This document shows, in pieces, positions 12,261-52,548 of a stretch of 64,000 bases of DNA. The notes under the pieces were generated by a model. It was not told the DNA's origin. It searched no databases and worked only from the letters and a program-made list of their open reading frames with translations. Position 1 is the stretch's first letter, and each line of letters opens with the position of its first letter. Both the position numbers and the translations under genes were made by a program. Source of the stretch: Candidatus Methanohalarchaeum thermophilum (GTDB taxonomy: Archaea > Halobacteriota > Methanonatronarchaeia > Methanonatronarchaeales > Methanonatronarchaeaceae); the NCBI GenBank assembly GCA_001914405.1, contig MSDW01000001.1, forward strand, positions 1,623,498 to 1,687,497, given 5' to 3'.

Positions 12261-12615
12261 GCAGTTGATTGGGTTTGTCTGCCTTTTTTTAACAGAAGGT
12301 GATCTCATTGTCTTTGAGACAGATACCTAAGATATAAAGGTAAGTCCGAAACCTTTGGAATAGGGGTCTTTGGTGGCTGATGTAGGAGCTCCCAAGGGAG
12401 AAAAAGCGGGGCTATCCTAAGAGTTAAGTTAATATATGGGTTTTTGTGTTTGCCCTGATCCAATTCTTCTCTTGGAGCCAATAGTTCTAGGTGTTGATTT
12501 AGGTGGAGTGAGAGAAGCCCCTCGGATGGAAAAAAGCAGACTCCACTCCGGATAAGGCTCAAATAGAAGCCTCCTTCCTCACGAGCGTAAACGAGTAAGC
12601 TAGGGGTTACTTTAC
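12261..12615 (+). mobile_element. Structured repeat element, copy 1
   Basis: First of six related non-coding elements. Motifs in order are: hairpin GCAG...CTGC, GGTAAGTCCGAAACC, GGAATAGGGGTC, a long stem CCAAGGGAGAA paired with TTCTTCTCTTGG, TTAATATATGG, CCTGATCCAATTC, TGTTGATTTAGGTG, GGATAAGG, and a 3' hairpin ending GGGGTTACTTTAC. The copy starts only 36 bp after the last CRISPR repeat. No tnpB/tnpA reading frame is present, and the 106-codon minus-strand frame across it is a shadow. The 3' end looks like an IS200/IS605 right end; its function is unknown. Confidence 0.8.
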
Positions 12616-13088
12616 AGGTTTTCAAAGTTTTGTTGAGTTTTTTGTTTGGAGTTTTTAGTGGTATAGGTTAGCTAGAGTTTGAGTGGTAGGTAGTTGAGCA
12701 ATTTGTTTGTTATTGTAATGAATGTGTTTTTGGGGTTTTGTTTGGAAACGAGGTTAGGGTATTGGGAGTTGTGACTAGTGGATGATAGTAAATTTGGAGC
12801 AGGGTTAGGTCTTAGGGGTTCTTGGATCCTTTGTTGTTGGTGGACAGTGTCTATTTTTAGTTGGTCATCTGATATTTGCACTAATTTTGGATGTTATGTT
12901 GGTCTTGTGAATGAATGGATGGATGTTTGTTTGTTCTTTGACCTAGGTAGGTGTAGTTTACTAGAGGATGTTAAAGTGGTTAGTTTAATTGGATTAGAAT
13001 AGTTATGGTTATGGTGGGATTAGTTGTTTTTGTGTTTTAGAGTGGTTTGGTTGTTTTGGGTTTTTTGTTTGGTTTGTTTTTCCTAGGG
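12616..13088 (+). other. Intergenic G/T-rich region
   Basis: The plus strand is strongly G/T-rich. Short frames here (for example 12778-13002) have no recognisable product and biased, low-complexity composition. I see no RNA gene. The end of this region is probably the 5' flank of the HD-domain gene. Confidence 0.4.
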
Positions 13089-13601
13089 TTGATTGCTGTG
13101 AAGGGTGATTTTGAGTTGGTTGATTTGGTAGAGGTTTTGAAGAGAAGAAAGAGGGAGGGATGGGAGTTTCGGGGTGTTCCTGGTGAGAGTATTGCTGAGC
13201 ATATTTTTGGTACGATATTTTTTTCTTATTTAATAGGTTTGGAGATTGAGAGAGATCTGGATTGGAGAAAGCTTTTTACTATTGCTTTGGTGCATGATTT
13301 GCCGGAGGCTTTGGTTTCTGATTTGGATAAGGTTTCTCAGCAATATATTTATTGTAAGGAAGAGGCTGAGAAGAGGGCTGTACGGGAATTTGGTGGGGAT
13401 GTAGCTGAGAGGTGGGGTGAGTATAGTAGTGGGAGTTGTCTTGAGGCTGAGATTGTTAAAGAGGCTGATAAATTAGATATGTATAATAGGGCTGTTAAGT
13501 TGATTGAAATTGGTTATTCAAGAGATATTTTGGGTGATTTTCTTGAGGTGGATTTTTCTTTGGAGGAGTCTGAGGAGATGGCGGAAGAGTTAGTTGATTG
13601 A
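13089..13601 (+). CDS. HD-domain hydrolase (5'-nucleotidase YfbR/HDDC2-like)
   Basis: A metal-dependent HD phosphohydrolase. The signature residues are: His in ESIAEHIFG, HD in ALVHDLPEAL (about 80 residues later than the start), and Asp in KEADKLDMYNRA. The order H...HD...D and the opening LKRRKREGWEFRGV match the HDDC2/YfbR group, which dephosphorylates deoxynucleoside monophosphates. An open frame extends upstream to 13047, but that part is low-complexity hydrophobic G/T-rich sequence. I therefore place the start at the TTG at 13089 (AGGG just upstream) or the GTG at 13098. Substrate preference cannot be read from sequence. Confidence 0.75.
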   Translation: MIAVKGDFELVDLVEVLKRRKREGWEFRGVPGESIAEHIFGTIFFSYLIGLEIERDLDWRKLFTIALVHDLPEALVSDLDKVSQQYIYCKEEAEKRAVREFGGDVAERWGEYSSGSCLEAEIVKEADKLDMYNRAVKLIEIGYSRDILGDFLEVDFSLEESEEMAEELVD

Positions 13602-13620
13602 TTAGTTTATATTAGTTGGA

Positions 13621-14550
13621 TTATTTTTTTAGTTTTATTAGGTTTTGTCTGCCTTTTTTGATTTTCTTTATTTTTTCTTCTTTTTTTAGTTTTTTTAGGA
13701 GGTTTGAGACTTTTGCTTTGGAAAAACCTGTCTTTTCTACTAGTTTTGTTTGGAAAATAGAGCCATTTGATTCTTCTAGTATGTTCAATATAAGTTCGAG
13801 GTCGTTGTCGTAGTCCTCAGGTTTTGTGGTTTTGTTTTGGTTTTTCTTTTTGAATTTATTGAAGTATATGTAGATTGTTGCTGAGGATAATGTTATTATT
13901 AGAGCTATTATTATTCCGTATTTTTGTATTGATGTGGTTTTTTCTGTTTCTTCGTGTTTTAGTAGGATCTCGGGGTTGTTGGGTTCAAAGTCGTTTGGGC
14001 CTTTCCAGATAAGTTCTTTGTCTTGTATTTTTGTTGGTTCGGGGTCTATGGAATGTATTTTGTATCCTGTTGGGTAGTGTATGGTTAGTGTATCGGTTTC
14101 ACTTAAATATAGTCCATTGACAAAGACGTCTCCTAATTTAATTTTTTCGTTGTCGATTACTGTGAAATTAGTCCAGTGGAAGTTGTAGTGTATTACGCCA
14201 TATGTTCCAGTTATTCCTTGTTCTATGGTTCCATTTAGGCTGAAGTTGGATGCTGACATTTTTCTTTGTGTTGAATTACTTGCAGTAGAGACTATGGCTT
14301 TTATGTTGTCTTTGAATAGGTTGGTTTCGGTTTCGGTTATGTTTGAGAGGTATTTTTGGAATTGGTTTTCTTGGGAATCTGTTTCCAGTTTGATTCTATT
14401 TTCTATAGTCCAGTTTGCAGAGGTATCGTTGTTTAGGGTGATTTGGTAGTTAGTTTTAAAGTCATATTCTTGGGCGCTTAGAGTAGGTAAAAATAACGAA
14501 ATTAAAACTAATGTTGTCAGTGTTAATAGAAAGATTGACCGTTTTTTCAT
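13621..14550 (-). CDS. Exported/membrane-anchored protein with C-terminal winged helix
   Basis: A 309-residue protein with an N-terminal signal peptide (hydrophobic 6-25, cleavage-like LSAQ), an extracellular Asn/Thr-rich beta domain with several NxT/NxS sites (about 27-205), one transmembrane helix (about 212-230), a Lys-rich stop-transfer stretch and a cytoplasmic MarR-like winged helix (about 248-305: ILNILEESNG ... LVEKTGFSKAKVSNLLKKL). This layout is that of the archaeal membrane-bound transcription regulators grouped as DUF7343/DUF7345-like. It probably senses something outside and acts on DNA inside. The ligand and targets are unknown. Confidence 0.75.
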   Translation of the reverse strand: MKKRSIFLLTLTTLVLISLFLPTLSAQEYDFKTNYQITLNNDTSANWTIENRIKLETDSQENQFQKYLSNITETETNLFKDNIKAIVSTASNSTQRKMSASNFSLNGTIEQGITGTYGVIHYNFHWTNFTVIDNEKIKLGDVFVNGLYLSETDTLTIHYPTGYKIHSIDPEPTKIQDKELIWKGPNDFEPNNPEILLKHEETEKTTSIQKYGIIIALIITLSSATIYIYFNKFKKKNQNKTTKPEDYDNDLELILNILEESNGSIFQTKLVEKTGFSKAKVSNLLKKLKKEEKIKKIKKGRQNLIKLKK

Positions 14551-18586: not shown

Positions 18587-19183
18587 ATTACAAAATAAGT
18601 GATTCCCTATTAAATAAAAATACTTTCCCCTTACCTCAAACGATTACTCCATAATTAGATATTAAGCTCTGAAATTTTTCAATAATCTACGAGATAATTA
18701 AAAATGAAACAATCTATGTTATATATGAGAGAATAAATATTAGGTAATTTAAGAACCGTTTCTTTTAGGTAAAAGAAGTTCACGCCTATGGTTCATATAA
18801 AAAGGAAGATCAGGATCAGTTTACATATATCCTATTTTTCTTGGGTATCTGGTCTTCAAATGTATGACCTAGAATAATGTAGTATCTACAGTTTATTGAT
18901 TTATAAAAGAAACAGGTCTTCCTTGATCTAGAAGGATAAGATCCTTCAATCGATGGGCAAAAGTAAAATATACTAAGATTAAAAAATATAAAGAATAATC
19001 TTTAATAGGTGGAGCAGTTCTAGGTTAATTTATCTTAGTGGTTAAGGAAGACCTCTTCCTAATCTTTGATTAGGTAGGGGAGAAAGTTACTGCTAAGGTG
19101 GAGTTTTTGTTAAAATAATGTTCCGCTTGGTTGCACAAAAACTAAGTATAAGAGCAATGTAAAAAATCAGAGGAGGACACATT
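18587..19183 (+). other. Long intergenic region with a palindromic box
   Basis: About 600 bp without a supportable ORF. The middle part (about 18770-18960) contains several short complementary runs such as GATCCTTC/GAAGGATAAG near 18920-18950 and could be transcribed. The box at 19028-19090 lies near its end. The last 40 bp hold the strong AGGAGGA ribosome binding site of the lsm gene. Confidence 0.4.
19028..19090 (+). repeat. Palindromic box, copy b
   Basis: This is the box family in plus orientation: TTTATCTTAGTGGTTA, GGAAGACC, inner arms CCTAATC / GATTAGG closing a TTT loop, AGGGGAGAAAGTTAC. It lies 94 bp upstream of the lsm start, so it would fall in the leader of that transcript if the promoter is further up. 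Confidence 0.75.
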
Positions 19184-19402
19184 TTGAGTGATGACAGACC
19201 CCTTGATATATTAAATAACTCTATAGGTTCACCGGTATTAGTGAGATTAAAGAGAAAGAGAGAGTTTAGAGGTACATTACGAGGATATGATGTTCATATG
19301 AATGTCGTTTTGGAAGATGCAGAAGAACTCAGTAGTGACAGTTCACGCACGCATGATACTTTAATTGTTAGAGGAGATAATGTAGTCTATATATCTCCAT
19401 GA
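19184..19402 (+). CDS. Sm-like archaeal protein (Lsm)
   Basis: A 72-residue Sm-fold RNA chaperone that forms a heptameric ring on U-rich RNA. The Sm1 motif ([22 protein letters not shown], here about residues 18-39, with the D/H-x-N RNA-binding residues) and the Sm2 motif ([11 protein letters not shown], about 61-71) are both intact. The start is TTG with a near-perfect AGGAGGA upstream. The L37e gene follows after 17 nt, the usual archaeal pairing. Confidence 0.94.
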
Positions 19403-19419
19403 GATAAGGAGGAATAAAT

Positions 19420-19581
19420 GTGGGAAAAGGAACACCTTCATTTGGAAAAAGACAGGATAAAACTCATGTAAAATGCAGGAGATGTGGCAATAAATCCTAC
19501 AATGTAGAGAAAGGAGTTTGTGCTTCTTGTGGGTTCGGTAAATCCAAAAAACAAAGAAAATATAGCTGGCAAGATAAATAA
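19420..19581 (+). CDS. rpl37e: 50S ribosomal protein L37e
   Basis: A 53-residue zinc-ribbon ribosomal protein, translated by hand. It reads [20 protein letters not shown], then CGNKSYNV, then [13 protein letters not shown], with the two CxxC pairs (KCRRCG and VCASCG) of L37e and the basic tail ending YSWQDK. The start is GTG at 19420, with AAGGAGGAA just upstream. Cotranscribed with lsm. Confidence 0.95.
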
Positions 19582-19616
19582 GGAGACCTAATATAAAATA
19601 GATCTATTTTGCGCAA

Positions 19617-20963
19617 ATGCAAGAAGAATGTGGAATTGTAGGGATATCTTCTTCTGATACTCTACCCTTCGATCTATACTATTCGCTTTACGCTCTGCAG
19701 CATAGAGGACAAGAATCAGCAGGGATATCAACTTACCACGAGGGAGAGATGGAGTTAAAAAGAGAGATGGGTTTAGTAGCAGAAGCATTCGGAGAAAAAG
19801 ACCTAAATCAACTTCAAGGAAATTCAGGTATAGGGCATGTAAGGTACTCTACATCGGGAAAATCAAGAATAGAAAATAGCCAACCGCTTCTTGTTTCTTC
19901 ATCGGAGGGCGAATTATCAATAGGCCATAACGGCCATATAGTGAACTCTAACAAGATAAGAAAGGAACTTGAAGAAGAAGGCCACGTGTTTACAACAGGA
20001 AATGACAGCGAAATTATAGCCCATCTACTCTCGAAAAACTACACAAAATACAAGGACATAGTAAAGGCAATAAAAAAATCAATGGATGAATTAAGAGGTT
20101 CTTATTCACTTATATTGCTATGGGAGGGAAAAATAATAGGAGTCAGAGACCCTTACGGAATAAAACCACTATGTTACGGGAAAACTTCTAATGGATATAT
20201 GGTTACCTCAGAAAGCGTTGCATTAGATACAATTGGAGCCAAATTGATAGACGATGTAGCTCCAGGACAGATAGTGATAGCGGATGAAGACAACTTAAAC
20301 AAATACACCTACAGAAAAGAAGGTACAGCCCACTGTTTCTTTGAACATGTATACTTTGCCCGACCAGACTCCAAGATAGATGGCAAGCTAAACTACGACT
20401 GCAGATTCAACATAGGTAAAAAATTAGGAGAAAATTATCCCGTAGAAGAAGCCGACTTAGTTTCCCCAGTTCCAGACTCAGGAATAACATTTGCTATAGG
20501 ATATTCAGAAGCCACAGGAATAACATACAAAGAATCTCTAATGAAAAATAGGTATGTGGGAAGAACATTCATAATGCCTGGCCAAGAGATGAGGGAGACA
20601 GCAGTTAGACTCAAAATGAATCCAGTTGAATCAAACGTCAAAGGAAAAAAAATAGTCTTAATAGATGACAGTATAGTAAGAGGAACTACTTCAACTCAGA
20701 TAATTAAACAACTAAAGAAAAAAGGAGCCAAAGAAGTCCACCTCCGTATAGGAGCCCCCCCGATAAGATTCCCATGCCATCTAGGAATTGATATGGCCAC
20801 CGAAGAAGAACTAATAGCTAATAACAACGAAATAAAAGATATAGAAAAACAAATAGGAGCAGATTCATTAAACTATATCGGAATCGATGAACTAATCGAA
20901 GCACTAAATATAAAAAAACAAAAACTCTGTCTAGGATGCTTAACAGGAGAATACCCAGTTTAA
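19617..20963 (+). CDS. purF: Amidophosphoribosyltransferase
   Basis: Glutamine PRPP amidotransferase, the first step of purine synthesis. Residues 1-about 230 form the Ntn glutaminase domain. It starts MQEECGIVGI, so four residues must be removed to expose the catalytic Cys5. YALQHRGQESAG and RYSTSG are typical. The C-terminal PRTase domain has the PRPP loop IVLIDDSIVRGTTS and ends near CLGCLTGEYP. At 448 residues it is near the standard length. It lies 35 nt after rpl37e; whether they share a transcript is unclear. Confidence 0.95.
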   Translation: MQEECGIVGISSSDTLPFDLYYSLYALQHRGQESAGISTYHEGEMELKREMGLVAEAFGEKDLNQLQGNSGIGHVRYSTSGKSRIENSQPLLVSSSEGELSIGHNGHIVNSNKIRKELEEEGHVFTTGNDSEIIAHLLSKNYTKYKDIVKAIKKSMDELRGSYSLILLWEGKIIGVRDPYGIKPLCYGKTSNGYMVTSESVALDTIGAKLIDDVAPGQIVIADEDNLNKYTYRKEGTAHCFFEHVYFARPDSKIDGKLNYDCRFNIGKKLGENYPVEEADLVSPVPDSGITFAIGYSEATGITYKESLMKNRYVGRTFIMPGQEMRETAVRLKMNPVESNVKGKKIVLIDDSIVRGTTSTQIIKQLKKKGAKEVHLRIGAPPIRFPCHLGIDMATEEELIANNNEIKDIEKQIGADSLNYIGIDELIEALNIKKQKLCLGCLTGEYPV

Positions 20964-21212
20964 TACAAATAAAAAAACATTAAAAACCAAAGAAAACAAA
21001 AATAACGAATTGAAATAAGCCAAAATCATCAAAGAAGAAGAAAAAACTAACTAAAACCCTAAAATAAAATAAAATAAAATAAACTATAGATAAAATACTA
21101 AATTCCAAGTAGACACATTAACATAGCATATAAATCAAATAATAGTTCTGTTTTTTAGTTGTCTTAAAGTTATATAATAAAATTTAGGGAAAGAAAGAGG
21201 TTTTTAAGTTTT
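20964..21212. other. Convergent intergenic region with AAAAT microsatellite
   Basis: An A-rich spacer between purF and the convergent DUF89 gene. A short tandem AAAAT run lies at about 21061-21083. T-rich tracts toward 21190-21200 may terminate the minus-strand gene. I see no gene. Confidence 0.45.
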
Positions 21213-22103
21213 TCACTGGGTTTTTTTAAGTTTAGCTATATTTGAATTTACTTCTACGCCTATTGAGTCGGCAACTGGTTTGCACTTGGTTCTTAATGTG
21301 TATGCTATGTTATATTCATCATCATATTCTGAGAGTGATTCGTAGTTTGCCATTCCCTTGCTTAATATTAGATCTGAATCTTCTAAGCTTTCTTCAGCTT
21401 TTTTTGATGTGTAATTAAAGTGAACTCCTACAGCTCTATCTCCTAGTTCGATCAGATTATCGACTTTTTTATCTAAATTAAGTTCAAGAGCTTCTTCTAA
21501 GGTTACATCATTGAATATTGGTGCTCCTCTCACCAATAGATCAATTTCTGCATCCGTGATCTCTTTAATTTGATCAAGGACCAATGAATCAAAAACTACT
21601 TCACCACAATTATCTAATATGTATGTTATTTTTTCAGCGTTTTTTGCTTCTTCTTTTATCTTATCAACGTCATCTATCGCAAGTTCTCCCTCTTTAAACT
21701 CTTTTTTAAAGTGTTCTCCGAGGTCTCGATTATCTAATTCGTGGCCCATTACCCCAAAATCCAATGAATTAGAAACAATAGAAGCTAAGAGCACTTTTCT
21801 AAAATTTTTTTCATTATCTTCAGTAAGAAAATCCTCTACTTCGTCTATTAAATCCATAGCAATTTCATTAGCCAATTGCTTCTTTCCTTTATAAGGATCA
21901 TCAACTCCTAGAGTATCATAAACAGTTCTATGCATCTCTGTAGATATCTCATGTAGAGGCGCATTAGAATCAAATCTACTTCTAATTACATCAAGCGCCC
22001 TTGAAACAGCTGCAAACCTTTTTTCTTTACCCTTACCCGATAAATCACTTTCATATTCGGCCCTGTTTAACAAACAAGGAACACATTTAGGATAGATCTT
22101 CAT
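21213..22103 (-). CDS. DUF89 / ARMT1-type metal-dependent phosphatase
   Basis: A member of the damage-control phosphatase family (DUF89), which hydrolyses phosphorylated sugars or coenzyme A intermediates using Mn/Ni/Co. The N-terminal MKIYPKCVPCLLNRA carries the CxxC motif of the archaeal/plant subfamily. The middle segment YILDNCGEVVFD (about 175-186) has the conserved Asp-Asn metal site, and LVRGAPIFNDVT follows. The C-terminus has the LSKGMANYESL substrate loop. I use the ATG at 22103 (MKIYPK) because the four residues before it do not fit the family. Archaeal members are tied to pantothenate/CoA damage repair only by family analogy. Confidence 0.82.
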   Translation of the reverse strand: MKIYPKCVPCLLNRAEYESDLSGKGKEKRFAAVSRALDVIRSRFDSNAPLHEISTEMHRTVYDTLGVDDPYKGKKQLANEIAMDLIDEVEDFLTEDNEKNFRKVLLASIVSNSLDFGVMGHELDNRDLGEHFKKEFKEGELAIDDVDKIKEEAKNAEKITYILDNCGEVVFDSLVLDQIKEITDAEIDLLVRGAPIFNDVTLEEALELNLDKKVDNLIELGDRAVGVHFNYTSKKAEESLEDSDLILSKGMANYESLSEYDDEYNIAYTLRTKCKPVADSIGVEVNSNIAKLKKTQ

Positions 22104-22378
22104 AAATATCATCAATTATTAACAAATTTTTAACTTCGATTGATTACATTATCCCTACAAGATCTTTAAATATTGCCTAATCAATTCTTATAAAACTAAC
22201 TAAGTCCAGAAAAAACCCTGATCCAGACATCAATTAACATAAAAAATAAAGAACTTATAAAACATCTAAATTATACAGAACCTCAAAGAAGTCAGAATAT
22301 TAAATCTATTAGACTAAAACCCAACAAACAATGAAATTAAATAGGTTTTTTCAAATTTTTCCAATATTCGAACTAGAT
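22104..22378. other. Upstream intergenic region of the DUF89 gene
   Basis: AT-rich sequence without a supportable ORF. It should contain the DUF89 promoter and, at its right end, the promoter for whatever transcript includes the GC-rich locus that follows. Confidence 0.35.
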
Positions 22379-22443
22379 TTATCTTGGTGGTTGAGAAGAC
22401 CCCTTACTTAATCTCTTGATTAGGAAGGGGATGAATCAACCCA
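22379..22443 (+). repeat. Palindromic box, copy c
   Basis: A clear two-stem palindrome: outer arms GGTTGA / TCAACC, an internal loop GAAGA opposite ATGAA, inner arms CCCCTT...TTAATC / GATTA..AAGGGG. Of the nine boxes this one shows the fold best. The GAAGA/ATGAA loop has the GA steps expected of a kink-turn. Confidence 0.8.
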
Positions 22444-22650
22444 TAAGGCTTAAGTGGCTCCGTGTCTTAGGTTTTGGTTTAAGCTAGGCAGGGGTTGTGG
22501 CCGAAGCCAAAAGCCCGTGGACAGATTGAGAGTTCTGGTTACCAAGCTCGCTGGCTTGGGCCAGGGAACCTCCTCAAAAAGCTTCCTAGATAAGCGCCGC
22601 CCAGGACTGAGATTGGATGACGGCGGTAGGAAGTAAAACCTCCTTTAACT
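22444..22650 (+). ncRNA. GC-rich structured RNA candidate
   Basis: A stretch of about 200 nt, visibly more GC-rich than the surrounding DNA, with no coding frame of note. Two strong hairpins can be drawn. In the first, GTTC-TGG-TTA-CCAAGC closes on GGCTTGG-CCA-GGAAC (about 22531-22569). In the second, CTTCCTA ... CCGCC closes on GGCGG-TAGGAAG (about 22582-22632). Palindromic boxes flank it on both sides. GC enrichment in an AT-rich archaeal genome is a known sign of structural RNA. I looked for the SRP helix-8 GGAA/AGCA signature and the RNase P P4 motifs and found neither. The strand is assumed. Confidence 0.5.
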
Positions 22651-22652
22651 CT

Positions 22653-22701
22653 GGAAGCATCCTTCCAAAATCAAAGATTTTGGTAGAGGAGGAAGTCACA
22701 A
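22653..22701 (+). repeat. Palindromic box, copy d (partial)
   Basis: Inner part of the box family: CCTTCC, then AAAATC / GATTTT arms, then GGTAGAGGAGG and GTCAC. The 5' outer arm is reduced to GGAAGCAT. It marks the right edge of the GC-rich RNA candidate. Confidence 0.6.
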
Positions 22702-23095
22702 GTTATAGTCCTAAATTAGAAAACAATTAACTTAAGTTATTTTTATCTGAGGTCGAGGTCACTACAAAAAGATAAAGAAGCATTGGTTAAAAAATTATTT
22801 TTTGTATTATTAAGAGAAATTTATACAATGAATACTAAGATGGCTATCTTTTAGGTATTTAGATTTTGAAATTAGATTTAAAAAGGGTTTTTACTTTATG
22901 CAATGAAGTACATTAAAGGTGAAGTTAACTTACAGACATTAGGATTTAGAGCGAGATAACTGGTTCGAAACTTTTAAGGTAGAAGGTAATGATAATTACC
23001 TGAAATTATAAATAGTCATGAGTGAAGAGTATAGTGGAGTAATGTTAATTTTAGGATAAAAGCTAAAAGCAGTTAATTAACTCGAAAGGAAAATT
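22702..23095. other. Intergenic region before the gshA-like gene
   Basis: About 390 bp of AT-rich sequence with no gene that I can support. The last 20 bp hold AAAGGA ahead of the ATG at 23096. A promoter is expected but I cannot place it with confidence. Confidence 0.35.
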
Positions 23096-24217
23096 ATGAC
23101 TTCATTTGGTGAATCATCTGAGTTTTCATTAGGTATTGAAGAAGAACTTCAAATAGTGGATCCAGAGACAGGTGAACTGGTTTCTAGGGTTGATGAATTT
23201 ATTGGGGAAGTTAAACACATTGAGAGTAATTTACGGAAGGAATTATTTCAATCTATAATAGAAATTGCCTCAGATGTTTGTGAAGACATAGATGAGGCTA
23301 GAGAAAACGTGAAAAGACTGAGAGGAGAACTCTTTGATTACTGTGAAGATAAAGGCTACGAACTAATGGCCTCAGGAACCCATCCATTTGCAAACTGGGA
23401 CGAACAGGATATCACAGAAGGAGAAAGATATCAAGAATTCGTTGACAAACTGAGGTGGACCGCAAAAAGAGAACTAATATTTGGACAACACGTACATATA
23501 GGCGTAGCTAGCAAAGAAGAGGCAATCTTTTGTACAAACAAGATAAAGAAATATTTACCTCACTTATTAGCTTTATCAGTGAATTCACCTTTCTGGCAAG
23601 GAGAAGAAACTGGATTAAAATCCACGAGAATCAGGATATTTGATAACTTACCTCGAACAGGATTGCCCAAAGAATTCGAAGACTGGAAGGATTACAAAAA
23701 GGTCGAGAATCGATTGAAGAAAGGAGGAAGCATTGATGATATCACAATGATATGGTGGGACGTTCGGCCAAGACCAGACCTTGGAACAATCGAAATAAGA
23801 ATATCCGACCTACCAACAACACTGGATGAAAGCATTTCTATTGCAGCAATAACCCAAGCACTAACATATAGGCTATCAAAGATATACAAAGAGGAAAGAG
23901 AAGACCTATATCCCAAAGTAGACCAAGAAATTATCAAAGAAAACAGATGGAGAGCACTCAGAGACGGATTAGAAGGCAAATTCATAAAAAGAGAAAACAA
24001 CGAAATAAAAGAAGTAGATGTTGCAGATGAAATAAACAACCTACTAGACCAAATTTCAACAGAAATATCAGAACTAGGAATAAAAAAAGAAGCCAAAAAA
24101 ATCAGAGAAATGAATAATAAAAGATACACAGGAGCTAAAAGACAACTAGAAATAAACGAAAGAACAAACGATCTAAGCGAAGTAGTCAAAGAACTAATAG
24201 AATTAACACAGCCGTAA
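23096..24217 (+). CDS. gshA: Glutamate-cysteine ligase family 2 (carboxylate-amine ligase)
   Basis: An ATP-dependent ligase of the GCS2/YbdK family, 373 residues, near full length. [17 protein letters not shown] (about 12-28), [25 protein letters not shown] and [17 protein letters not shown] are all typical. In haloarchaea this family makes gamma-glutamylcysteine, their main low-molecular-weight thiol, with which the protein fits best; other members have unknown amine substrates. The TAA stop (24215-24217) lies inside the terminal GTAAA of the reverse-oriented structured element that abuts the gene. The last few codons may therefore have been replaced by insertion. Confidence 0.85.
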
Positions 24218-24571
24218 AGTACCTCCTGTAGCAAGCTGTAGGGTTTCCGATGTGGCCTCTTATCTCAAAGAGGAGTTTGGCTTTTATGTTGGATTTGTCT
24301 CACAGCACCCAAAATCAACATAGGATCTTGAGCCTTGAGTGAAGAAACGGATTAGGATCTCGCCATATATTAACTTGTAGATGGTTCCCTTATTCCTTTA
24401 GTGGCTGCTACACACCAGCCACCAAGAACCTACTCCAATAACTGTTTCCGGCTTACCCATCTATCTAATTACTCATACACCTATTCGATGCAGGATCCAA
24501 GACTTTAACAACCTCTCAAGACATGGGATTGCTTTTTGTTATATAGAATGCAGACAAACCAACCAACTGCC
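24214..24571 (-). mobile_element. Structured repeat element, copy 2
   Basis: Read on the minus strand: hairpin GGCAG...CTGC, AAAAAGCAATCCCATG, GGTAAGCCGGAAAC, GGAGTAGG, stem GTGGCTG / CAGCCAC, AATAAGGGAACC, AATATATGG, CCTAATCC, TTCTTCACTC, TGTTGATTTTGG, AAACTCC, GGAAACCC and terminal GGTACTTTAC. The terminus overlaps the gshA stop codon. It lies back to back with copy 3, a palindromic box between them. No transposase gene is inside. Confidence 0.82.
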
Positions 24572-24609
24572 AATTAAGGAATAACTGTTTTTCTTAATCC
24601 TTAAATATT

Positions 24610-24672
24610 TTATCTTAAATGTTGAGAAGACCCCTTCCAAAATCTTTGATTTTGGTAGGGGATGAATCAACT
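24610..24672 (+). repeat. Palindromic box, copy e
   Basis: TTATCTTAAATGTTGA, GAAGACCCC, inner arms TTCCAAAATC / GATTTTGGTA, AGGGGATGAATCAAC. The outer arms GTTGA / TCAAC and the GAAGA/ATGAA internal loop are preserved. It lies 41 bp before copy 3 of the structured element in the same orientation. Confidence 0.8.
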
Positions 24673-24713
24673 AGGAAGGGTTTAAGTGTTTTTGAGACTA
24701 ATTAAGAGTAACT

Positions 24714-25070
24714 GGCAGTTGGTTGGGAGTCTGCCTCATCAAAAAGCAATCCCGTTGCCTACACGGGGCGTGTCCGTGGACTGACTTGGAAACGAGTCAA
24801 GTAACGAGTTGAAAAAAAATAGGTAAGCCCGAAACTTCGGGAGTAGGGTGTAGTGGTTGTGTGGAGCAACCAGAGTGAATAAGGGAGCCATTGTGTAGCT
24901 AATATAGGGGCTTTGTGCCCTAATCCAATTCTTCACTCAGAGCGCAAGTTCCCTGTTGACGGTGTGTATGAGACAAGTACCGTGGAAAAGCAAACTCCTC
25001 TTTGGATAAGGCTCACAGGGAAGCCCCTTCCTCACCGAACGAATGTGAGGTAAGGTAGGGGTCACTTCAC
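24714..25070 (+). mobile_element. Structured repeat element, copy 3
   Basis: Good reference copy of 357 bp: GGCAGTTGGTTGGGAGTCTG hairpin, AAAAAGCAATCCC, GGTAAGCCCGAAAC, GGGAGTAGGG, stem GTGGTTG / CAACCA, stem AGAGTGAATAAGG paired with CTAATCC...TTCACTC, stem ACGGT / ACCGT, AAGCAAACTCC, GGATAAGG, GGGAAGCC, then a terminal hairpin (CCTCAC / GTGAGG within CCCCT / AGGGG) and TCACTTCAC. No open frame encodes a recognisable protein. Confidence 0.85.
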
Positions 25071-25238
25071 TTCAAATACTATTCATTCCGTGCTTTGAAA
25101 TACACATGTTTTCTGCCGTTAACTATGAGCTGCTGGTTGTTAGTGTATCTTATCTGTTATCATTTTTGACATAGAAGGTTTAGCAAAAAAAGAGGATTAA
25201 ATAAAAATGTATTGGTGTAATTTAGTTCTTAGTCGAGT

Positions 25239-26126
25239 TTAAACGATGTCTTTTAAGTGTATTTTATGTTTTCCTAATTCTCCATTGAAGTTACCTGCTG
25301 AAATTTTTTTAATTCCTTCTATCTTAGAAGCTGCCTTTATTCCTTTTTTCATTCCTTTTTTTACTTTTTCTTTGTTCATTCCATTTATAATTATTTCTGG
25401 TACTGCTTCAATATCTTCTGGAACTTTTGAGTTTTCTATTTTCTCTCTTAATGTAGGACAATAAGGGTGGTTAGTGGTAGGACCTATCTCGGGGTAATTT
25501 GTTTCAACCTTTGATCCTGCGGAACATATATCAAATGGTGTAACTACTCCGTTTACTTCTTTTATTGCTTCTATAGCCTTATCTCCAGCTTTTAGCGCTG
25601 AATCCATAGATTCAGCAAAAAACCAAATGTTTCCTCCCATAACACCTTTTGAAAAACCAAGTTCTCTTTCGATTAAAAACTCTCCCATCATGATAGGGAT
25701 ATTGATGACTTCTCTACCAAACCTGTTTTCTTTCCACTCATAGCCATCACCGCAGTGACCTATTTTCTCCATTACATCAATTTTTTCTTCTGATTCGAGG
25801 TAATTGAAAATTCTGGTACCTGGAACAACTAATATGCCTTGTCTGACTCTTTTAGATAGTTCATGTTCTAATTTATCTACTCCTGACTCATAATTACTCC
25901 AAACCTGAATGACAAATCCCTTTCTCTTATCAGGAGTTTCCTTCTTATCCAGCTCTTTTTCAGCTCCCGCCTCAGATTCATCAAAAACTGTTAATGGTAA
26001 GGCGGTTGATTCAGTAGCAGCTCTATTTAATCTTTTATCATCCACCCCAGTTACAACGAATCTAGTAAATAATCCATCAAAAGCTTCGCAGAAAGTATCT
26101 TCAACTTTAACTCCATTTAACTCCAT
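25239..26126 (-). CDS. ftr: Formylmethanofuran--tetrahydromethanopterin formyltransferase
   Basis: Ftr moves the formyl group from formylmethanofuran to H4MPT, the second step of the C1 branch in methanogenesis and its reverse. The protein is full length (about 295 residues) and matches the family from the first residue: [67 protein letters not shown] and the ending [12 protein letters not shown]. The ATG at 26126 follows AGGTG by 6 nt and matches the family N-terminus; a GTG three codons earlier overlaps that site. This is the best metabolic marker for methanogen ancestry in the window. It stands alone, with no other C1 gene nearby. Confidence 0.94.
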
Positions 26127-27003
26127 ATTTAACACCTAATAACTAGAACTGTGATATAAGACCAATAGCTATTTATAATAGTTAGATGTATTTGATTTTT
26201 GGAGCAATTAAATATTTTGTAACCACTTTAGGAACAGAATAATTATGTTAAAGAAAGACTAATCAAATTAAAATCAAAGAAAATAAAATAATCTCTTAAA
26301 AGAAAGGAAAGAAACTATAACGTCTTTGGAAAACTTCCTAGATCTTTATATGAATGAGTAATAACAAGAAATTATAATTTCTTCTATTTGAATAAAAGAG
26401 GTCTCCGCATATATACATCTTTTTTTATTCAGGGATCGAAGTCTTTCTCTTAGAAGTAGTGAAAAATAAAGAGTCACTGACTCTTTTTAACCATCTTCTT
26501 GAGGTTCTTTTCTGTTTATCCAATTTCTATAGTAAAAGGTGGTGTTTTTGCTACAGAATTCAGTGAGCACTGCCTTAGAATATCCTCTGTTAATTTCTAT
26601 CAGGAAATTTGATTCCCAAAACATTTGATGATTCCTATGTTAAGATTTTGAGTCTTATAGAGATTTTTTATTTTTTAAACTACTGTAAAGGATGTGTTTT
26701 AACTAAATTAAAGCGTAATTTAATAGTAATTAATTTTTATAGATTTCATTTGTTTTTTATTTTGTTGTTTATTAGGTTTAAAGTTGATTTATTTAAATTA
26801 AATAGTTTTTATTGGATTACTTAAGCTTATTATGGGATGTAGTGTCTTTATCTGTTTTTAATTGATTGAAAGACAATTTAATTTATATGTAAAATCTTGG
26901 TTTAGGTTTTTTTGGGTAAATATGCTCGTATATTATAATTATGGGTCAACCCATAATCTTTTATATTTAAATTTGATATTAGAAGTTGGTAGCGGTTTTT
27001 AAA
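26127..27003. other. Long AT-rich divergent intergenic region
   Basis: About 880 bp between ftr (minus) and uspA (plus). Small hairpins are visible, for example GAGTCA CT GACTC near 26474-26486, but nothing I can name. Short frames such as 26609-26824 have AT-driven composition and no family resemblance. It must contain both promoters. Confidence 0.4.
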
Positions 27004-27417
27004 ATGTATGATAAAATTCTTTTACCTACAGATGGAAGCGAGAAAATGGCGAAAGTCATTGACAACGCTGTTAATTTAGCTGAGAAATACAACTCAATTC
27101 TACACACACTCTTCGTCGTTGATACAAGATACGCAGATTTATTAACTGGTGAAAGAGGCCTTGAAGCATCTGAAAAAATGGGTAAAAAAGCTATAAAAGA
27201 AGTAGAAAATGAAGCCAAAAAGAAGACCATAGAAATTACTAAGAACATTGTAAAAGGCATACCCGCACAAGAAATAATCAAATACGCAGATGAAAACAAA
27301 ATTGATCTAATTGTAATCGGCACCCACGGAAAAACAGGTTTAAACGAATACCTTCTAGGAAGTGTAGCAGAAAGAGTCCTCAGACACTCAAATGTCCCAA
27401 TACTTTTAACAAGATAA
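27004..27417 (+). CDS. Universal stress protein, UspA family
   Basis: A 137-residue single-domain USP. It opens MYDKILLPTDGSEKM and ends with the ATP-binding signature GTHGKTG...LLGSVAERVLRHSNVPIL, so it is of the ATP-binding type. I chose the ATG at 27004 because the upstream TTG frame adds six residues outside the family alignment. Its precise role is unknown; members respond to energy or redox stress. Monocistronic. Confidence 0.9.
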   Translation: MYDKILLPTDGSEKMAKVIDNAVNLAEKYNSILHTLFVVDTRYADLLTGERGLEASEKMGKKAIKEVENEAKKKTIEITKNIVKGIPAQEIIKYADENKIDLIVIGTHGKTGLNEYLLGSVAERVLRHSNVPILLTR

Positions 27418-27764
27418 TCAAAGCCAAAAAAATCAAACGAAAAGAAGATAGCAATATGTTGGTTAATTACCAAAAACCTCTCTAGAAATACTACCATCTT
27501 CTGTAATGAAAAAATTATTGAAATATCATTATAAAGCATTGATGAACCTTTAATTGAGGTTTCAAGTAACTTCCGAGATTTCGTAGCTTGAAACGAAAGC
27601 ATCAAAGCCAAAATAGAACTAACACCCTCTTTTGATACTAAAATCTCTATACGAATCAAGAAAAATATTAATTAAAAAGCTCTGAATCCTCAACCCTATA
27701 GATACCGATTTCTGCATCCCAAATCAATTTTAATTTTAGTTTAATTTAGTTTAGTTTAGTTTAG
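27418..27764. other. Intergenic region with TTTAG tandem run
   Basis: No gene that I can support. At about 27733-27763 there is a short tandem array of TTTAG/TTAGT units on the plus strand. The minus-strand frame across uspA and this region is a shadow of uspA. Confidence 0.4.
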
Positions 27765-28005
27765 GTATTTGCGGAACCTGGAGCAGAAGGGGGAATCTGT
27801 GCCTCTACAACACCCTAGCGGTTAATTTCTTATCTTAATTAGTGGCCGAGAAAGGGCAAAAGAGAGGAAGTGGTAACTTAACGGCTTCAGTTGGTTGATG
27901 ATGTCAGTTAACTATCTCGGGAATTAATCCTCTTCGTGACCAATCTCTTTAGAAGAAGTAAGAAAAGGATTGGTAATCTGGTGTAGGTATCTTAAATTGG
28001 TTGAA
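27765..28005 (+). ncRNA. Possible structured RNA / degenerate element
   Basis: More GC-rich than its flanks. It contains CAGTTGGTTGATGATGTCAG at about 27893, which resembles the first hairpin of the 360-nt element family, and TTATCTTAATTAGTGG, which resembles the start of the palindromic box. A hairpin CCAATC...GATTGG can be drawn at about 27939-27976. The rest does not align with the six full copies. It may be a decayed element or an unrelated RNA. Low certainty. Confidence 0.3.
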
Positions 28006-28128
28006 AAAAGGAAGTTTGTTTTTTGTTCTCTAAGATTAAATTAAAGATAGTAATTGATTAATTTAAAAGTAGTAATGGTATTTTTTGTTGGTAAAAAATA
28101 AGTTGTTATTATTGGTTGGGTTATTAAA

Positions 28129-28614
28129 ATGAGTGATGAAAAATTATTTGCTCCGTGGAGAAGGGAGTATGTGAAGGAAGCTAAGGATGGCACGGATGGA
28201 TGTGTTTTCTGTGAGTTGCCTGAGGGAGATGATGATAAAGATAATCTAATTCTTTTTAGGGGTAATTTAAATTACTTAGTTCTAAATAAGTATCCTTATA
28301 ATCCTGGACATGCTATGGTAGTGCCTTTTGATCATGTTGGTGATTATACTCAATTAGATGAGGAGACTATTAAAGAGAGGTATAGTATAGAGAAAATGTA
28401 TATTGAGGCAGCTAGGTCGGTTTTTGATCCAGATGGATTTAATGTTGGAATGAATTTGGGGAGAACTGCAGGAGCAGGTGTGGACGATCATATCCATGTT
28501 CATTTGGTTCCTCGTTGGAATGGTGATAATAATTTTATGCCTGTGATATCAGATACTCGTGTTATATCGCAGAGCCTTAAGTCAGCTTATGAAGAATTAA
28601 ATAGGGAGCTTTGA
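28129..28614 (+). CDS. HIT-family nucleotide hydrolase/phosphorylase
   Basis: A 161-residue histidine-triad protein. The catalytic motif HIHVHLVPRW lies at about residues 122-131 and the N-terminal GCVFCELPEGDD provides the partial zinc/nucleotide site of the branch-II (Fhit/Ap4A phosphorylase-like) group. LNKYPYNPGHAMVVP is the classical substrate-binding segment. It probably acts on dinucleoside polyphosphates or nucleoside phosphoramidates; which one cannot be told. The C-terminal half is complete. Confidence 0.88.
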   Translation: MSDEKLFAPWRREYVKEAKDGTDGCVFCELPEGDDDKDNLILFRGNLNYLVLNKYPYNPGHAMVVPFDHVGDYTQLDEETIKERYSIEKMYIEAARSVFDPDGFNVGMNLGRTAGAGVDDHIHVHLVPRWNGDNNFMPVISDTRVISQSLKSAYEELNREL

Positions 28615-29394: not shown

Positions 29395-29465
29395 ACCATT
29401 TTTGGTTTTTTTGGTTATGTAATGAATTGTGGTATGTGGAGAAAAAATATAAATATAAAACATTA

Positions 29466-37204: not shown

Positions 37205-38053
37205 ATGAACAAAAAACAACTAAAAGAAATAGAAAAAAAACTAGGCCTAGACCTTAAGAAAAACTCGGATCAGGTATTTTTAATTGATGAAAGAGTAGCT
37301 AAAAGACAAGTAGAATACGCTGAAATATCCGGAGAAGACCTAGTTCTAGAAGTTGGAGCAGGAACAGGTACTCTAACTAACCACATAACAAAAAGAACAA
37401 GGGAAAAAAATCTAACGGTAATAGAAAAAGATCCCCGATTAGTTGATCTGCTAAAAGATAGGTTTGGAGAACACATTAAAGTAAAACTAGCAAACGCTCT
37501 AGAAGTAGAATTTAACGATTTCAATAAAATCATCTCTAACTTACCTTATTCTATTTCATCAGAAATAACATTCAAATTCCTAGACTACGAATTTGATTTA
37601 GCGATATTAATGTACCAAAAAGAATTTGCTGAGAGAATGGTAGCAGAACCAGAAGACGAGATGTATGGCAGGCTATCAGTGATGATAGAGCTGTTAAGCG
37701 ATGCAGAGATCAAGGAAATTGTCCCTCAAACGGCTTTTTATCCAAGACCAAGAGTCAAATCAGCCATAGTACAACTTACTCCAAACAAGACCAAATACAA
37801 TGTAACAAATCTAGGTTTCTTCAAGAGATTTATCAAGGCAATATTTACCCAGAGAAGAAAAAAAATCAAGAATTCCATAATTAATACCAGACACATCTAC
37901 GAAAACGAATATAATGGTATTAGCAAAAATAAAAGAGAAATAAAGAAATCACTACCGAAAACGGAATTCGACCTAGATAAAAGACCAGAGGATTTCAACA
38001 CTGCTGAACTTGTAAGATTAAGCAATCAATTCTACGATGAATTATACAAGTGA
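37205..38053 (+). CDS. ksgA: rRNA adenine N6,N6-dimethyltransferase
   Basis: KsgA/Dim1 dimethylates two adjacent adenines at the 3' end of 16S rRNA. The 282-residue protein has VLEVGAGTGTLT (SAM motif I, about 49-60), the catalytic ISNLPYSISSEI (NLPY, about 115), and FYPRPRVKSAIVQL. The TGA stop (38051-38053) lies inside the terminal GTGAA of structured element copy 5, which is inserted in reverse immediately after. The natural C-terminus may have been slightly changed. Confidence 0.94.
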   Translation: MNKKQLKEIEKKLGLDLKKNSDQVFLIDERVAKRQVEYAEISGEDLVLEVGAGTGTLTNHITKRTREKNLTVIEKDPRLVDLLKDRFGEHIKVKLANALEVEFNDFNKIISNLPYSISSEITFKFLDYEFDLAILMYQKEFAERMVAEPEDEMYGRLSVMIELLSDAEIKEIVPQTAFYPRPRVKSAIVQLTPNKTKYNVTNLGFFKRFIKAIFTQRRKKIKNSIINTRHIYENEYNGISKNKREIKKSLPKTEFDLDKRPEDFNTAELVRLSNQFYDELYK

Positions 38054-38373
38054 AGTGACTCCAAATCAAAGCTGTGGAGATTCCATCTGACCTCATTCAC
38101 ATGGAGAGAAGTTTATATCACACCAGGCTTCTCTCAGTCACCTAGTCAACAGGGGAACTTGCGCTTTGAGGGAAGAATTGGATTATGGGGCTAAAGGCAA
38201 AAGACCCAATATATTAGCACATAGTGGGTTCTCTTATTCCTCAATGGCGTCTCTAAATCAACTACCTGGGCCCTACTCCAGAGCTGTTTCGGAGTTACCT
38301 AGGGAGATTTTTTAGCCAAATTGGACTATTTAGGGGGCCTCGTTTGTTTGTTTAAGGCAGAATGCCTAACTGC
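38050..38373 (-). mobile_element. Structured repeat element, copy 5
   Basis: On the minus strand: hairpin GCAGTTAGGCATTCTGC, GGTAACTCCGAAACAGC, GGAGTAGGGCC, stem TTGAGGAATAAGAG pairing with AATTCTTCCCTCAA, AATATATTGGG, TGTTGACTAGGTG, TGGAATCTCCA hairpin and terminal GGAGTCACTTCAC. The stem bases differ from copies 1-4 yet remain complementary. Its terminal bases supply the ksgA stop codon. Confidence 0.8.
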
Positions 38374-38500
38374 TAAACCTAAATTGGTTTTAGAGCCAAT
38401 TAAGTGTTGGTAAAGGCATTAATCCTCACGACAGAGGCGTGGGTTTTCTGCCATACTCTATTATAAAATAAAAAATAAAGACTAAAGAGGTAGTGTTTTT
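38374..38500. other. Short spacer after element copy 5
   Basis: AT-rich with a small hairpin CCTCACGAC...GTGG near 38422-38444. It should hold the promoter and the TTG start context of the following methyltransferase. Confidence 0.35.
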
Positions 38501-45226: not shown

Positions 45227-45463
45227 GTTTCTCAATCAAATAAACTTTTGAACCCTATTAAAATTTCGCATCAATGTGATTTTTTAGTCACAAACCAAGA
45301 AAATAACAAAGAAAAAAGACCATACACAACCCAGCTCCAAAAACCAAGACAAAAACCCTAAAAACAAAAAAATAACTCCAAAACCAAAAAACCAATCACA
45401 GACAAAACAAACAAAAAAACAAAGCAATAAAGAAACCCAACAAAAATACGAAGGACAAATAAC
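45227..45463. other. A/C-rich upstream flank of the decayed gene
   Basis: Almost G-free on the plus strand apart from a few positions. A plus-strand gene promoter is not evident. No ORF that I can support. Confidence 0.35.
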
Positions 45464-47774: not shown

Positions 47775-47839
47775 TAACTTCAACTACCCATCTCTAAATC
47801 AGAGATCTTGGAAGAGGTCTTTTCAACCACTAAGATAAA
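47775..47839 (-). repeat. Palindromic box, copy g
   Basis: Minus-strand reading: TTTATCTTAGTGGTTGAA, AAGACC, CTCTTCCAAGATCTCTGATT, GGGTAGTTGAAGTT. The start (TTATCTTAGTGGTTGA) is identical to copy i. The inner pairing is weaker than in copies c and e. Confidence 0.7.
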
Positions 47840-49501: not shown

Positions 49502-50106
49502 AGAAAGAAACACAAAACACAAAAAACCAGGGAAAAACCAATTTTTAATACCTAAAAATTCTTTATCCCCCTATTTTAGATCTAAAAGAACACTCTCTCT
49601 AATGAATCTAAGATCTAAAAACCATTAACTCAAACAAGCGATACAATAATAACCGATTTCAGAGATAAAATAAAAATTTAATACAATTTTTTTTAATAAA
49701 ATAACTCTAATAGCTTACAACTCAAATCTATTTTAATAATCCTCATCTACCTAGATTCGGAGAAAAGTAGATCTAAACCTAATATATTTTTCGACCTGGT
49801 TACTCTTAACTTGGCTATTTTTAATCTAGGGTTATAGTGTAAGGTTATCTGTATTTTATGCAGCTCTGTATTTTATGCAGCTCAAAAAGGGTTTATTGGC
49901 TCTTAGTGTTTTTATTCTGAGTGTTGAAGGCCCAAGGAAATTTAGAATGAGTTTTTTTAAGTAGATCGGTGTGATTTCCTATTTAATAACTGAATGGTAG
50001 AGATGATATTAATGTGTTTTTAGTTGTTTTCTTGATGAATGGTTTTTTCTTGGTTCAGGATCTAGGGTTTTTAGTTTTTAATGGTTTTTTGGTTTTTGTG
50101 TGTTTT
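49502..50106. other. Convergent intergenic region with 17-bp tandem repeat
   Basis: About 600 bp between serA and aif2b. The left part is A/C-rich, the right part G/T-rich, matching the 3' ends of genes on the two strands. Candidate U-tract terminators lie at about 49685-49700. A perfect tandem repeat lies at 49849-49882. No gene that I can support. Confidence 0.45.
49849..49882 (+). repeat. Perfect 17-bp tandem repeat (two units)
   Basis: CTGTATTTTATGCAGCT occurs twice head to tail without mismatch. Each unit has CTG...CAG / AGCTGCAT-like partial dyad symmetry. Confidence 0.85.
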
Positions 50107-51251: not shown

Positions 51252-51346
51252 CTCTAAATGAATGGATTTTTATTTGAACTTAGGTTTATCAAGAAATATA
51301 AGTTCAGGTATATTAATTTTTCCATCTAATTAAAGTTTTTTGTTAT

Positions 51347-52036
51347 TTAGCTTTTTTCTTCGATCAAAGCCTTCAACCAACCTGCTAAAGTGTGTGCCTC
51401 TCTAGCAGTTAGCTCAGACCTTCCAAATATCCTCTTTAACATAAGATTGGTTTTCTCTCTCTTATGTTCTGGGTAATCTATGTGGTTAACCAACTTGGAA
51501 AGTCTTTCATAGATGATATCAAGTTCTTTCTGAGAAGCTAACCTAATCTCTTCCTTTTCTATCTCACTTAACTCATACATTAAAATTGCAACGGACTGAG
51601 CTAAATTCATAATGGGATACTCATCAGATGTAGGAATCGAAACAATTATCTCACACTCTTTTAAAACCTTATTAGGTAAACCATAATCCTCTCTACCAAA
51701 GAACAACCCAATTTTTCCAATCTTATCTCTTAACTTATCTTTAAGTTCCCTAGGAGTAAAGTAAGGCATTCTAATATGTCTATCCGAAGTTTCACCTCTA
51801 ATTCCCGTAGTAGCTACTCGATAATCAAATTGAACTAGTAATTCCTCTACCGAATCAACTTCAACCACATTATCTAGAATATTCTGAGCATTAGAAGCCA
51901 TAGCTCTTGCTTCTTCTCCTATTTCAGTTGGATTAACTAAAAATAAGTCACTAAAACCAAAGTTCTTCATAACTCTAGCAACCGAACCAATATTGCCTCC
52001 AAATTTAGGCTCCACCAAGACAACATCTAGATCCAT
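51347..52036 (-). CDS. SpoU/TrmJ-type RNA 2'-O-methyltransferase
   Basis: A 229-residue SPOUT methyltransferase. VLVEPKFGGNIGSVARVMKN (motif 1, here VVLVEPKFGGNIGSVARVMK), LFFGREDYGLPNKVL (motif 2) and IPTSDEYPIMNLAQSVAIL (motif 3, the trefoil knot) are intact. The archaeal TrmJ group modifies tRNA position 32. The C-terminal extension has a typical helical REAHTLAGWLKAL end. Monocistronic, with structured element copy 6 upstream. Confidence 0.9.
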   Translation of the reverse strand: MDLDVVLVEPKFGGNIGSVARVMKNFGFSDLFLVNPTEIGEEARAMASNAQNILDNVVEVDSVEELLVQFDYRVATTGIRGETSDRHIRMPYFTPRELKDKLRDKIGKIGLFFGREDYGLPNKVLKECEIIVSIPTSDEYPIMNLAQSVAILMYELSEIEKEEIRLASQKELDIIYERLSKLVNHIDYPEHKREKTNLMLKRIFGRSELTAREAHTLAGWLKALIEEKS

Positions 52037-52199
52037 AATAACCTCAAGTTAATTTCCGCGTTCAACCTATAAATTTTAACCATATTATAAAACTAAAAAA
52101 GAAAAAACCAAAAGAACCTAGAACATTAGAAACAACCCAAGATACATGACCACAATAAATAACAACCCAATTTATTTAACTTCTAAATCTAATCATCGT

Positions 52200-52548
52200 T
52201 TATCTAGGTAACTGGGATACTCATCTTTATCCGGATTGGAGTTTGCTTTTTTCCCATCCAGGGGAGGGTTCTCTCACTGCACCTAAATCAACATCTGAAA
52301 CTATTTGCTCCAAGAGAAGAATTGGATCAGGAAAAATACAAAAATCAATTATATTAACTTTTAGGTTTGTTTCCTTAATTCTCTCTTGGTAGTTTCTACA
52401 TCAGCCACTAGGACTCTACCCCAAAAGGTTTTGAGTTTACCCTAACACATCTTATTTGATGTAGCGTCTTAGGGGCTTTAGCTTAGCCAGAAGACCTTAA
52501 GAGACATGGGATCGATTTTTATTAAGGCAGACAAGCTAATCAACTGCC
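52200..52548 (-). mobile_element. Structured repeat element, copy 6 (3' end degenerate)
   Basis: Minus-strand reading: GGCAGTTGATTAGCTTGTCT hairpin, ATCGATCCCATG, GGTAAACTCAAAACC, GGGGTAGAGTCC, stem CCAAGAGAGAAT pairing with ATTCTTCTCTTGG, TTAATATAATTG, CCTGATCC, TGTTGATTTAGGTG, AAGCAAACTCC, GGATAAAG. The final hairpin and TTCAC terminus of the other copies are not recognisable; the sequence runs out at about 52200. The internal motifs are nearest to copy 1. Confidence 0.75.

Follow-up and report, generated by a model that had tools for sequence, protein, structure and literature searches.

The 64,000-nt stretch of Candidatus Methanohalarchaeum thermophilum DNA analysed here (the window; GCA_001914405.1, contig MSDW01000001.1, positions 1,623,498-1,687,497 of the forward strand) carries six copies of a repeated element, which an initial annotation, made from the letters alone, had described as a six-copy family of ~310-360 nt with an RNA fold. 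We found that the copies are non-autonomous transposable elements of the IS200/IS605 type, that is, palindrome-associated transposable elements (PATEs), and that the fold of their core is very probably under selection. Copy 3 (24614-25070, +), delimited by alignment with 12 other copies, is a complete 457-bp element consisting of a left hairpin, the core and a right hairpin ending in TCACTTCAC. The target pentanucleotide TTTAT is read directly to its left (24609-24613, +), and its 3′ structural domain, with helices H10, H8, H9 and the right-end hairpin, covers 24942-25070 (+). Copy 4 (29472-29873, +; TTTAT before it at 29467-29471) is complete at 402 bp and has no variable core insert, and copy 5 (38050-38462, −; TTTAT at 38463-38467) has a second left-end type, a AATAGAGTATGGCAGAAAACCC hairpin. 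Core and right end are present in copy 1 (12259-12615, +), core and a decayed right end in copy 2 (24214-24574, −); no left end was recognised in either. Copies 2 and 3 are arranged head to head. Copy 6 (52171-52551, −) has a decayed core with another left-end type upstream and no recognised right end. Copy 1 adjoins a CRISPR-like array of 30-nt repeat units, which occupies 10513-12224 directly before it.

The homology of the six copies held. A covariance model of the 3′ domain of the core (R1; 126 positions, 24 pairs) finds all of them, at 12477-12615 (+; copy 1, 82.1 bits), 24214-24333 (−; copy 2, 60.9 bits), 24942-25070 (+; copy 3, 116.4 bits), 29744-29873 (+; copy 4, 117.7 bits), 38050-38164 (−; copy 5, 75.7 bits) and 52171-52308 (−; copy 6, 45.0 bits). 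The seed included copies 1, 2 and 4, whose matches are expected by construction; copies 3, 5 and 6 were outside it, although close relatives of copy 3 were included. All six are also recovered by nhmmer with a whole-core profile; 48 of 50 sequences went into it, copy 5 being one of those omitted. The family is, however, far larger than six: in the organism's own genome (G000; 2.14 Mb, 4 contigs) R1 gave 145 matches at E<=0.01, a lower bound on copy number as 150 of 1583 candidates were scored, and copy 4 as a query gave at least 68 matching pieces (40 of 167 candidates scored). If each of the 145 were a full element of ~450 bp, together they would make up ~65 kb, or ~3% of the genome; many are decayed or partial. 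Comparison of the window with itself showed repeats of the six-copy kind along with several other small repeats.

When 13 copies from a single subfamily were aligned together with flanking DNA, sharp borders appeared between the element and its unrelated surroundings. The left border is TTAT in all 13 copies and TTTAT in 11 of them, with a hairpin following, and the right border is a hairpin and then TCACTTCAC. Over the family, 78 of 94 right ends fit the search pattern (65 are exactly TCACTTCAC), as do 46 of 87 left ends, a count that is partly circular because the left-end pattern itself demanded NTTAT; 42 of these 46 read TTTATC, and the remainder represent other left-end types or decay. 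Copies with both ends fitting the patterns (n=50) are 385-512 bp long. The element, with its conserved core of ~300 nt and its defined transposon ends, is thus longer than proposed in the annotation. Several types of left-end hairpin occur in the family, and palindromes lie near both termini without terminal inverted repeats. At position 1550699 of contig C1 an element interrupts a tnpB gene, with no target duplication; rejoining the flanks so that TTTAT is kept restores a 374-codon open frame across the junction, and shifts of 1 or 2 bases give none. This tnpB is the one case of clean insertion without duplication.

The element has no conserved reading frame (0 of 62 cores is stop-free in each of the six frames), in agreement with the non-coding nature assigned to it originally. 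Its own genome has 24 rows for Y1 transposase (TnpA) and 89 for the TnpB C-terminal domain, some rows being pieces of one gene and a number of the TnpB rows being partial or containing stops. The right end of the element is 87.8% identical over 49 nt to that of TnpB locus L162 and 84.6% identical over 52 nt to those of TnpB loci L170, L171 and L177; the left end resembles the one upstream of TnpA in L050 (80.6% identity over 62 nt). According to the available part of their description, PATEs of Haloquadratum walsbyi have palindromes near the termini like IS605 transposons, lack terminal inverted repeats and target duplications, are present in many copies, are too short to encode a transposase, and in some cases are degenerate IS605 elements (PMC3119063). 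The window family has all of these hallmarks: the ends, the absence of duplication and of a transposase, and the many copies. The initial annotation therefore recognised a homologous RNA-like fold but missed the mobile IS200/IS605-type ends, and its six loci are members of one transposable class rather than six independent RNA genes. What sets the family apart is the conserved internal RNA fold, which that part of the Haloquadratum report does not mention (PMC3119063). Neither a conserved RNA core in PATEs nor this family was recognised in the part of the literature covered. Hairpin-only mini-elements of ~60 bp also occur here after TTTAT, at 7652-7709 (−), 19034-19090 (+) and ~47778-47834 (−) of the window and at L078:713-779 (−); in them a single hairpin joins the 5′ half of the left end to the 3′ half of the right end, like the terminal-only PATEs in the same account of Haloquadratum (PMC3119063).

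A structured RNA within IS200/IS605 ends is also found in IStrons, in which that RNA is a ribozyme, and ORF-less forms of these exist, one IStron having ORF-less copies in the portion of the report available (PMC4227781). The element could accordingly be imagined to be self-splicing, removing itself from transcripts. The family, however, is hardly ever found in long frames: only 1 of the 50 both-ended copies interrupts an open frame of >=150 aa, and that frame is the tnpB. No intron family, of group I or group II, matched at E<=5 in loci L001, L009, L020 and L023 or at E<=10 in L023 and L046, and the IStron survey, as far as its available text goes, found none in archaea (PMC4227781). We regard self-splicing as most improbable.

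Besides its own genome, the family was found in one relative of the same family but another genus (60 relatives' genomes, copy 4 as query). A search with R1 of 392 sampled genomes of the phylum gave the same two carriers only (stricter filters, 8 candidates scored per genome). A pattern scan of genome_contigs returned 5 stretches, every one from one relative, archaeon SCG-AAA382B04; two pattern scans of viral_contigs gave no family stretch, and a distant blastn search of plasmids and phages with copy 3 gave no match. The core is the same in the relative's copies, which have stem variants of their own, and the AATAGAGTATGGCAGAAAACCC left-end type of copy 5 recurs in two of them (L065 and L069). 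In some of these copies the hairpins that flank the core differ from those seen otherwise, so that the core is a module separable from the ends. Within the own genome, several near-identical copies at unrelated places point to recent movement.

The motifs and the pairing variants of the central stem quoted in the annotation are present in the sequence. In the predicted fold, the core begins with H1 (GGCAG..CTGCC), continues through a variable insert, absent in some copies, to H3 and H4 (of the GGTTG..CAACC type), then a long central stem, H5, around H7 and hairpin H6, and finally the eight-pair H10 around hairpins H8 and H9, before the right-end hairpin. Compensatory change is strong in the 3′ domain. 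H8, for example, occurs as CGGTG/CACCG, CCGAA/TTCGG, TCAAG/CTTGG, CTGGG/CCCAG, TTGGG/CCCGA, TTGAG/CTCAA and TTGGA/TCCAA, plus imperfect forms; it has 36 distinct pairs, and on average 3.61 of 5 positions pair within a copy versus 3.04 between copies. Alignments A1 and A2, from which the fold was derived, were made of 62 copies, selected from 76 full ones so that no two are >=93% identical over >300 nt. With plain MAFFT on the 62 copies, cells changed on both sides of a pair numbered 169; 500 shuffles gave 73.0 (standard deviation, sd, 8.9) and slid controls 29-59. In A1, 83.0% of cells were paired versus 73.7% in shuffles, and the covariation score was 0.361 versus 0.208 shuffled and 0.095-0.169 in slid controls; pairs showing at least one double change were not exceptionally many (18 versus 16.2 shuffled). 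A model-fitted alignment of 97 distinct rows, which leans towards structure by having been fitted to it, gave 318 both-side-changed cells versus 123.0 (sd 11.5) and a covariation score of 0.416 versus 0.210. In a strand-swap test scored by duplex energy, H5, H6, H8, H10 and the right-end hairpin were weakened (p<=8e-4), and H9 (p 0.011) and H7 (p 0.025) gave a weaker signal, with permutations that ignore relatedness. Scored by run length, the test was marginal for H9 (0.047) and not significant for H3, H4, H6 (p 0.35) and H7 (p 0.15). On the tree, H8 showed 36 paired-to-paired double changes versus 0-6 in six slid controls.

Mapping of changes on the tree suggested where selection acts. In the right-end hairpin and helices H8, H9 and H10 taken together, changed Watson-Crick pairs remained paired in 90 and were broken in 44 cases on internal branches, versus 99 kept and 127 broken on terminal ones (Fisher p 2e-5); for core helices alone the figures were 53/28 and 54/76 (p 0.001). 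These counts leave out changes that start from G-U or mismatched pairs, and the contrast may be partly technical, as alignment errors also land on terminal branches. Because changed pairs tend to stay paired on internal branches and to break on terminal ones, the simplest reading seems to be selection on the spreading element: an inserted copy decays freely, and the lineage that spreads keeps the fold. The same data bear on two other explanations. If the copies were host RNA genes, regulators or scaffolds each retained at its locus for a host function, the position of 49 of the 50 both-ended copies outside frames of >=150 aa and the TATA-like boxes of many copies would be understandable; the excess of broken pairs on terminal branches, the near-identical copies in unrelated flanks and the presence of the family in just 2 of the 392 sampled phylum genomes make this highly unlikely. 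Alternatively, the core may be a relic: an omegaRNA, or some RNA of another kind, that became trapped between IS605 ends long ago and whose structure is inherited but unused. The many decayed copies and the free breakage of pairs on terminal branches suit a relic, as does the degenerate nature of some PATEs in the Haloquadratum account, so far as it is available (PMC3119063). Internal branches, however, have 41 compensatory Watson-Crick double changes versus 44 breaks, and a core with its own stem variants in a second genus needs selection while the family spread; a relic is in our view unlikely.

Which strand carries the fold was addressed through G-U pairs and upstream signals. When Watson-Crick pairs are replaced on internal branches, G-U exceeds A-C by 49:25 over all helices (p 0.007), a bias that would identify the + strand of the element. 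A TATA-like hexamer is found at -50 to -30, mostly -35 to -31, in 38 of 56 copies (shuffled mean 6.7), a count inflated by shared descent; these 56 of the 62 copies were usable, having a first hairpin that can be placed with 60 nt upstream. Transcription, if such boxes are used, would begin after the left hairpin and within ~10 nt of the core.

Comparison with known RNAs gave no name to the core, whose fold the annotation had likewise not recognised. The window had no Rfam gathering hit, and no relevant Rfam match appeared at permissive thresholds in family loci L001, L009, L020, L023 and L046 or in 18900-30000 of the window. HEARO (RF02033), the RNA of IscB, did not match in the family loci searched, though local HEAROs score: loci of decayed IscB match it at E 5.5e-6, 1.8e-5 and 0.039, so that the Rfam search can detect relatives here. 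The RRXRR domain (decayed IscB) is present at three places (C2:306328-306831, C2:122176-123094 and C1:95793-96269), with the HEARO matches upstream. HEARO/IscB omegaRNA, in the part of the description available (PMC9755519), is likewise a large structured RNA inside IS200/IS605-type ends, and it occurs in the same genome, apparently once standalone; it differs from the family core in having the opposite orientation relative to the ends, and no IscB lies beside family copies at the places examined. Identity of the core with the local IscB omegaRNA was rejected, as the core profile matches at the RRXRR places only with its 3′ end region (positions 305-379). Apart from end hairpins, 33 nt around H3 have a match within the iscB frame of L078 (82%, E 6e-4) and a weak one in L079. 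Rejected too was the possibility that the core is a TnpB tail RNA: 8 TnpB loci and 20 further tails share no core, the end region being common. The apparently standalone HEARO-like element lies at ~56046-56547 of the window, is 82-88% identical over ~149 nt to the HEARO regions beside IscB remnants, has IS605-type hairpins at both ends and no listed ORF of >=80 aa inside, and gives no Rfam HEARO score at E<=1. A seemingly standalone element of this type suggests that ORF-less guide elements are possible in this genome.

A fold of this kind calls for an explanation at the level of the element, and for RNAs of IS200/IS605 elements the established role is that of omegaRNA. According to the available portion of the report on them, omegaRNA scaffolds end at the element end with the flank serving as guide, and the nuclease has been proposed to cut the empty donor joint, thereby restoring the element (PMC8612924). 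By analogy with the right-end element RNA (reRNA, or omegaRNA) of TnpB, an RNA from the window family would terminate at the right end and take its guide from the flank, and the left pentamer would be the transposon-adjacent motif (TAM) (PMC8612924, in part); the right-end sequence is common to local TnpB elements and the family. The family differs in being unattached to tnpB, in its length (~300 nt versus ~150 in the same partial source, PMC8612924) and in showing no clear kinship beyond the end region. As a working model, we propose that TnpA made elsewhere would move the element as single-stranded DNA, in trans because the ends need TnpA and the element encodes none. A TATA-like box would start transcription within ~10 nt of the first core hairpin, and the transcript would pass the right-end hairpin into flanking DNA, so that the core may serve as an omegaRNA-like scaffold and the 3′ flank as guide. 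Cleavage of the empty donor joint (TTTAT plus flank) by a TnpB-like or other nuclease supplied in trans would then force the element to be copied back. We prefer the guide reading because the core runs into the right end, the left pentamer could be a TAM and the genome is full of TnpB genes. With neither linkage in cis nor sequence kinship, it is the best but unproven reading. To the whole chain, a PATE that is moved in trans and carries a ~300-nt folded RNA payload acting as an omegaRNA-like guide scaffold, we assign a probability of roughly 0.42; the guide role of the core, taken by itself, is likewise somewhat short of an even chance.

Several results weigh against this model. As to the fold, H3 (0.88) and H4 (0.14) were not significant in the strand-swap test by duplex energy, folding energy was unremarkable (z -2.0, -0.6 and -0.03), and of all column pairs in the whole-element alignment none was significant at E<0.05 in a tree-simulated test of covariation (40 simulations). 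The annotation's claim of a fold kept by compensatory change is thus borne out by the excess of both-side-changed cells but not by this test. Presumably, variable stems are misplaced in the sequence alignment; domain alignments were adopted because the whole-element test gave none and a second stem scan was uninformative. As to the strand, the G-U preference on internal branches shrinks to 28:18 (p 0.18) in the core alone and is absent on terminal branches (75:69 overall, core 35:49). By helix, G-U and A-C cells number 39:15 in H10 (6 of 8 pairs counted), 36:30 in H8 and 7:14 in H9, and when A-C is allowed instead of G-U, runs become longer in H10 and H7 but shorter in the seven remaining helices, so that the strand is not settled. 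This weak preference in the core would suit a fold that serves the single-stranded DNA intermediate of transposition (top strand), in excision, circle protection or second-strand synthesis. IS200/IS605 elements move as one defined DNA strand, the strand on which the fold was modelled, and copy-level decay suits any element-level function. A role in DNA is, on the other hand, disfavoured by the internal G-U excess over all helices and by the presence of a TATA-like box shortly before the core, and known IS200/IS605 elements require only the two end hairpins; we think it improbable.

The guide model also lacks a partner: no cognate protein was identified, and the family copies have no clear TnpB linkage. 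Same-strand TnpB pairs downstream numbered 7 versus 4.2 expected within 1.5 kb and 16 versus 8.4 within 3 kb, and linkage is not clear. Comparing the 145 matches with 82 of the 89 TnpB rows placed 3 downstream in the same orientation at 700 nt or less, the nearest at 333 nt, so that the family does not overlap tnpB 3′ ends. R1 run unfiltered on 15 TnpA/TnpB/IscB loci gave 35 hits at E<=10, of which the best (22.7 bits) is a hairpin-only mini-element; by their alignments the top four are end hairpins, the others reach at most 13.0 bits, and no clear kinship of the core emerges.

PATEs have so far been treated, in the part of their description available, as transposase-free and partly degenerate repeats (PMC3119063). 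If compensatory change holds the fold during spread, selection for an RNA can act on an IS605 derivative that has no gene. This raises the question of whether a guide scaffold can be all that a non-autonomous element carries, with TnpB-like nucleases recruited in trans. In that case even parasites of parasites could rely on RNA-guided retention, and there may be one more class of guide RNA, with an effector of its own. That the family is itself a new mobile guide RNA class, a gene-less IS200/IS605 parasite with its own scaffold that borrows the host's transposase and a still unrecognised RNA-guided nuclease, we consider doubtful.

Other mobile elements were seen alongside the family. A second PATE-like family is represented at 22383-22699 (+) of the window, with a similar left end after TTTAT, a different, conserved core of ~220 nt and a right end in ..GGAGGAAGTCAC; it also occurs at L010, L062, L023, L135, L133, L057, L104, L099, L014 and L050 (70-93% identical). 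It has CTAGATAAGCG-like and CTGGAAGC motifs in common with the tails of TnpB loci L047 and L062. A GATAAG motif common to these two tails and the second family was dropped as a candidate, not being general among tails. Two nearly identical intact TnpB frames of 415 codons lie in unrelated flanks at C1:645788 and C1:852172 (L060 and L061); they are unlike six other TnpB loci compared, and this TnpB is perhaps a recent arrival. A further group of similar stretches (~68-78% identical) is found at 6301-6463, 45339-45440, 50013-50098, 53655-53733 and 58053-58432 of the window. Finally, two of the family copies touch neighbouring genes: the stop codon of a GCS2-family frame (23096-24217) lies at 24215-24217, inside the right end of copy 2, and that of an rRNA adenine dimethylase frame (37205-38053) at 38051-38053, inside the right end of copy 5, so that the two copies seem to supply the stop codons of these frames.

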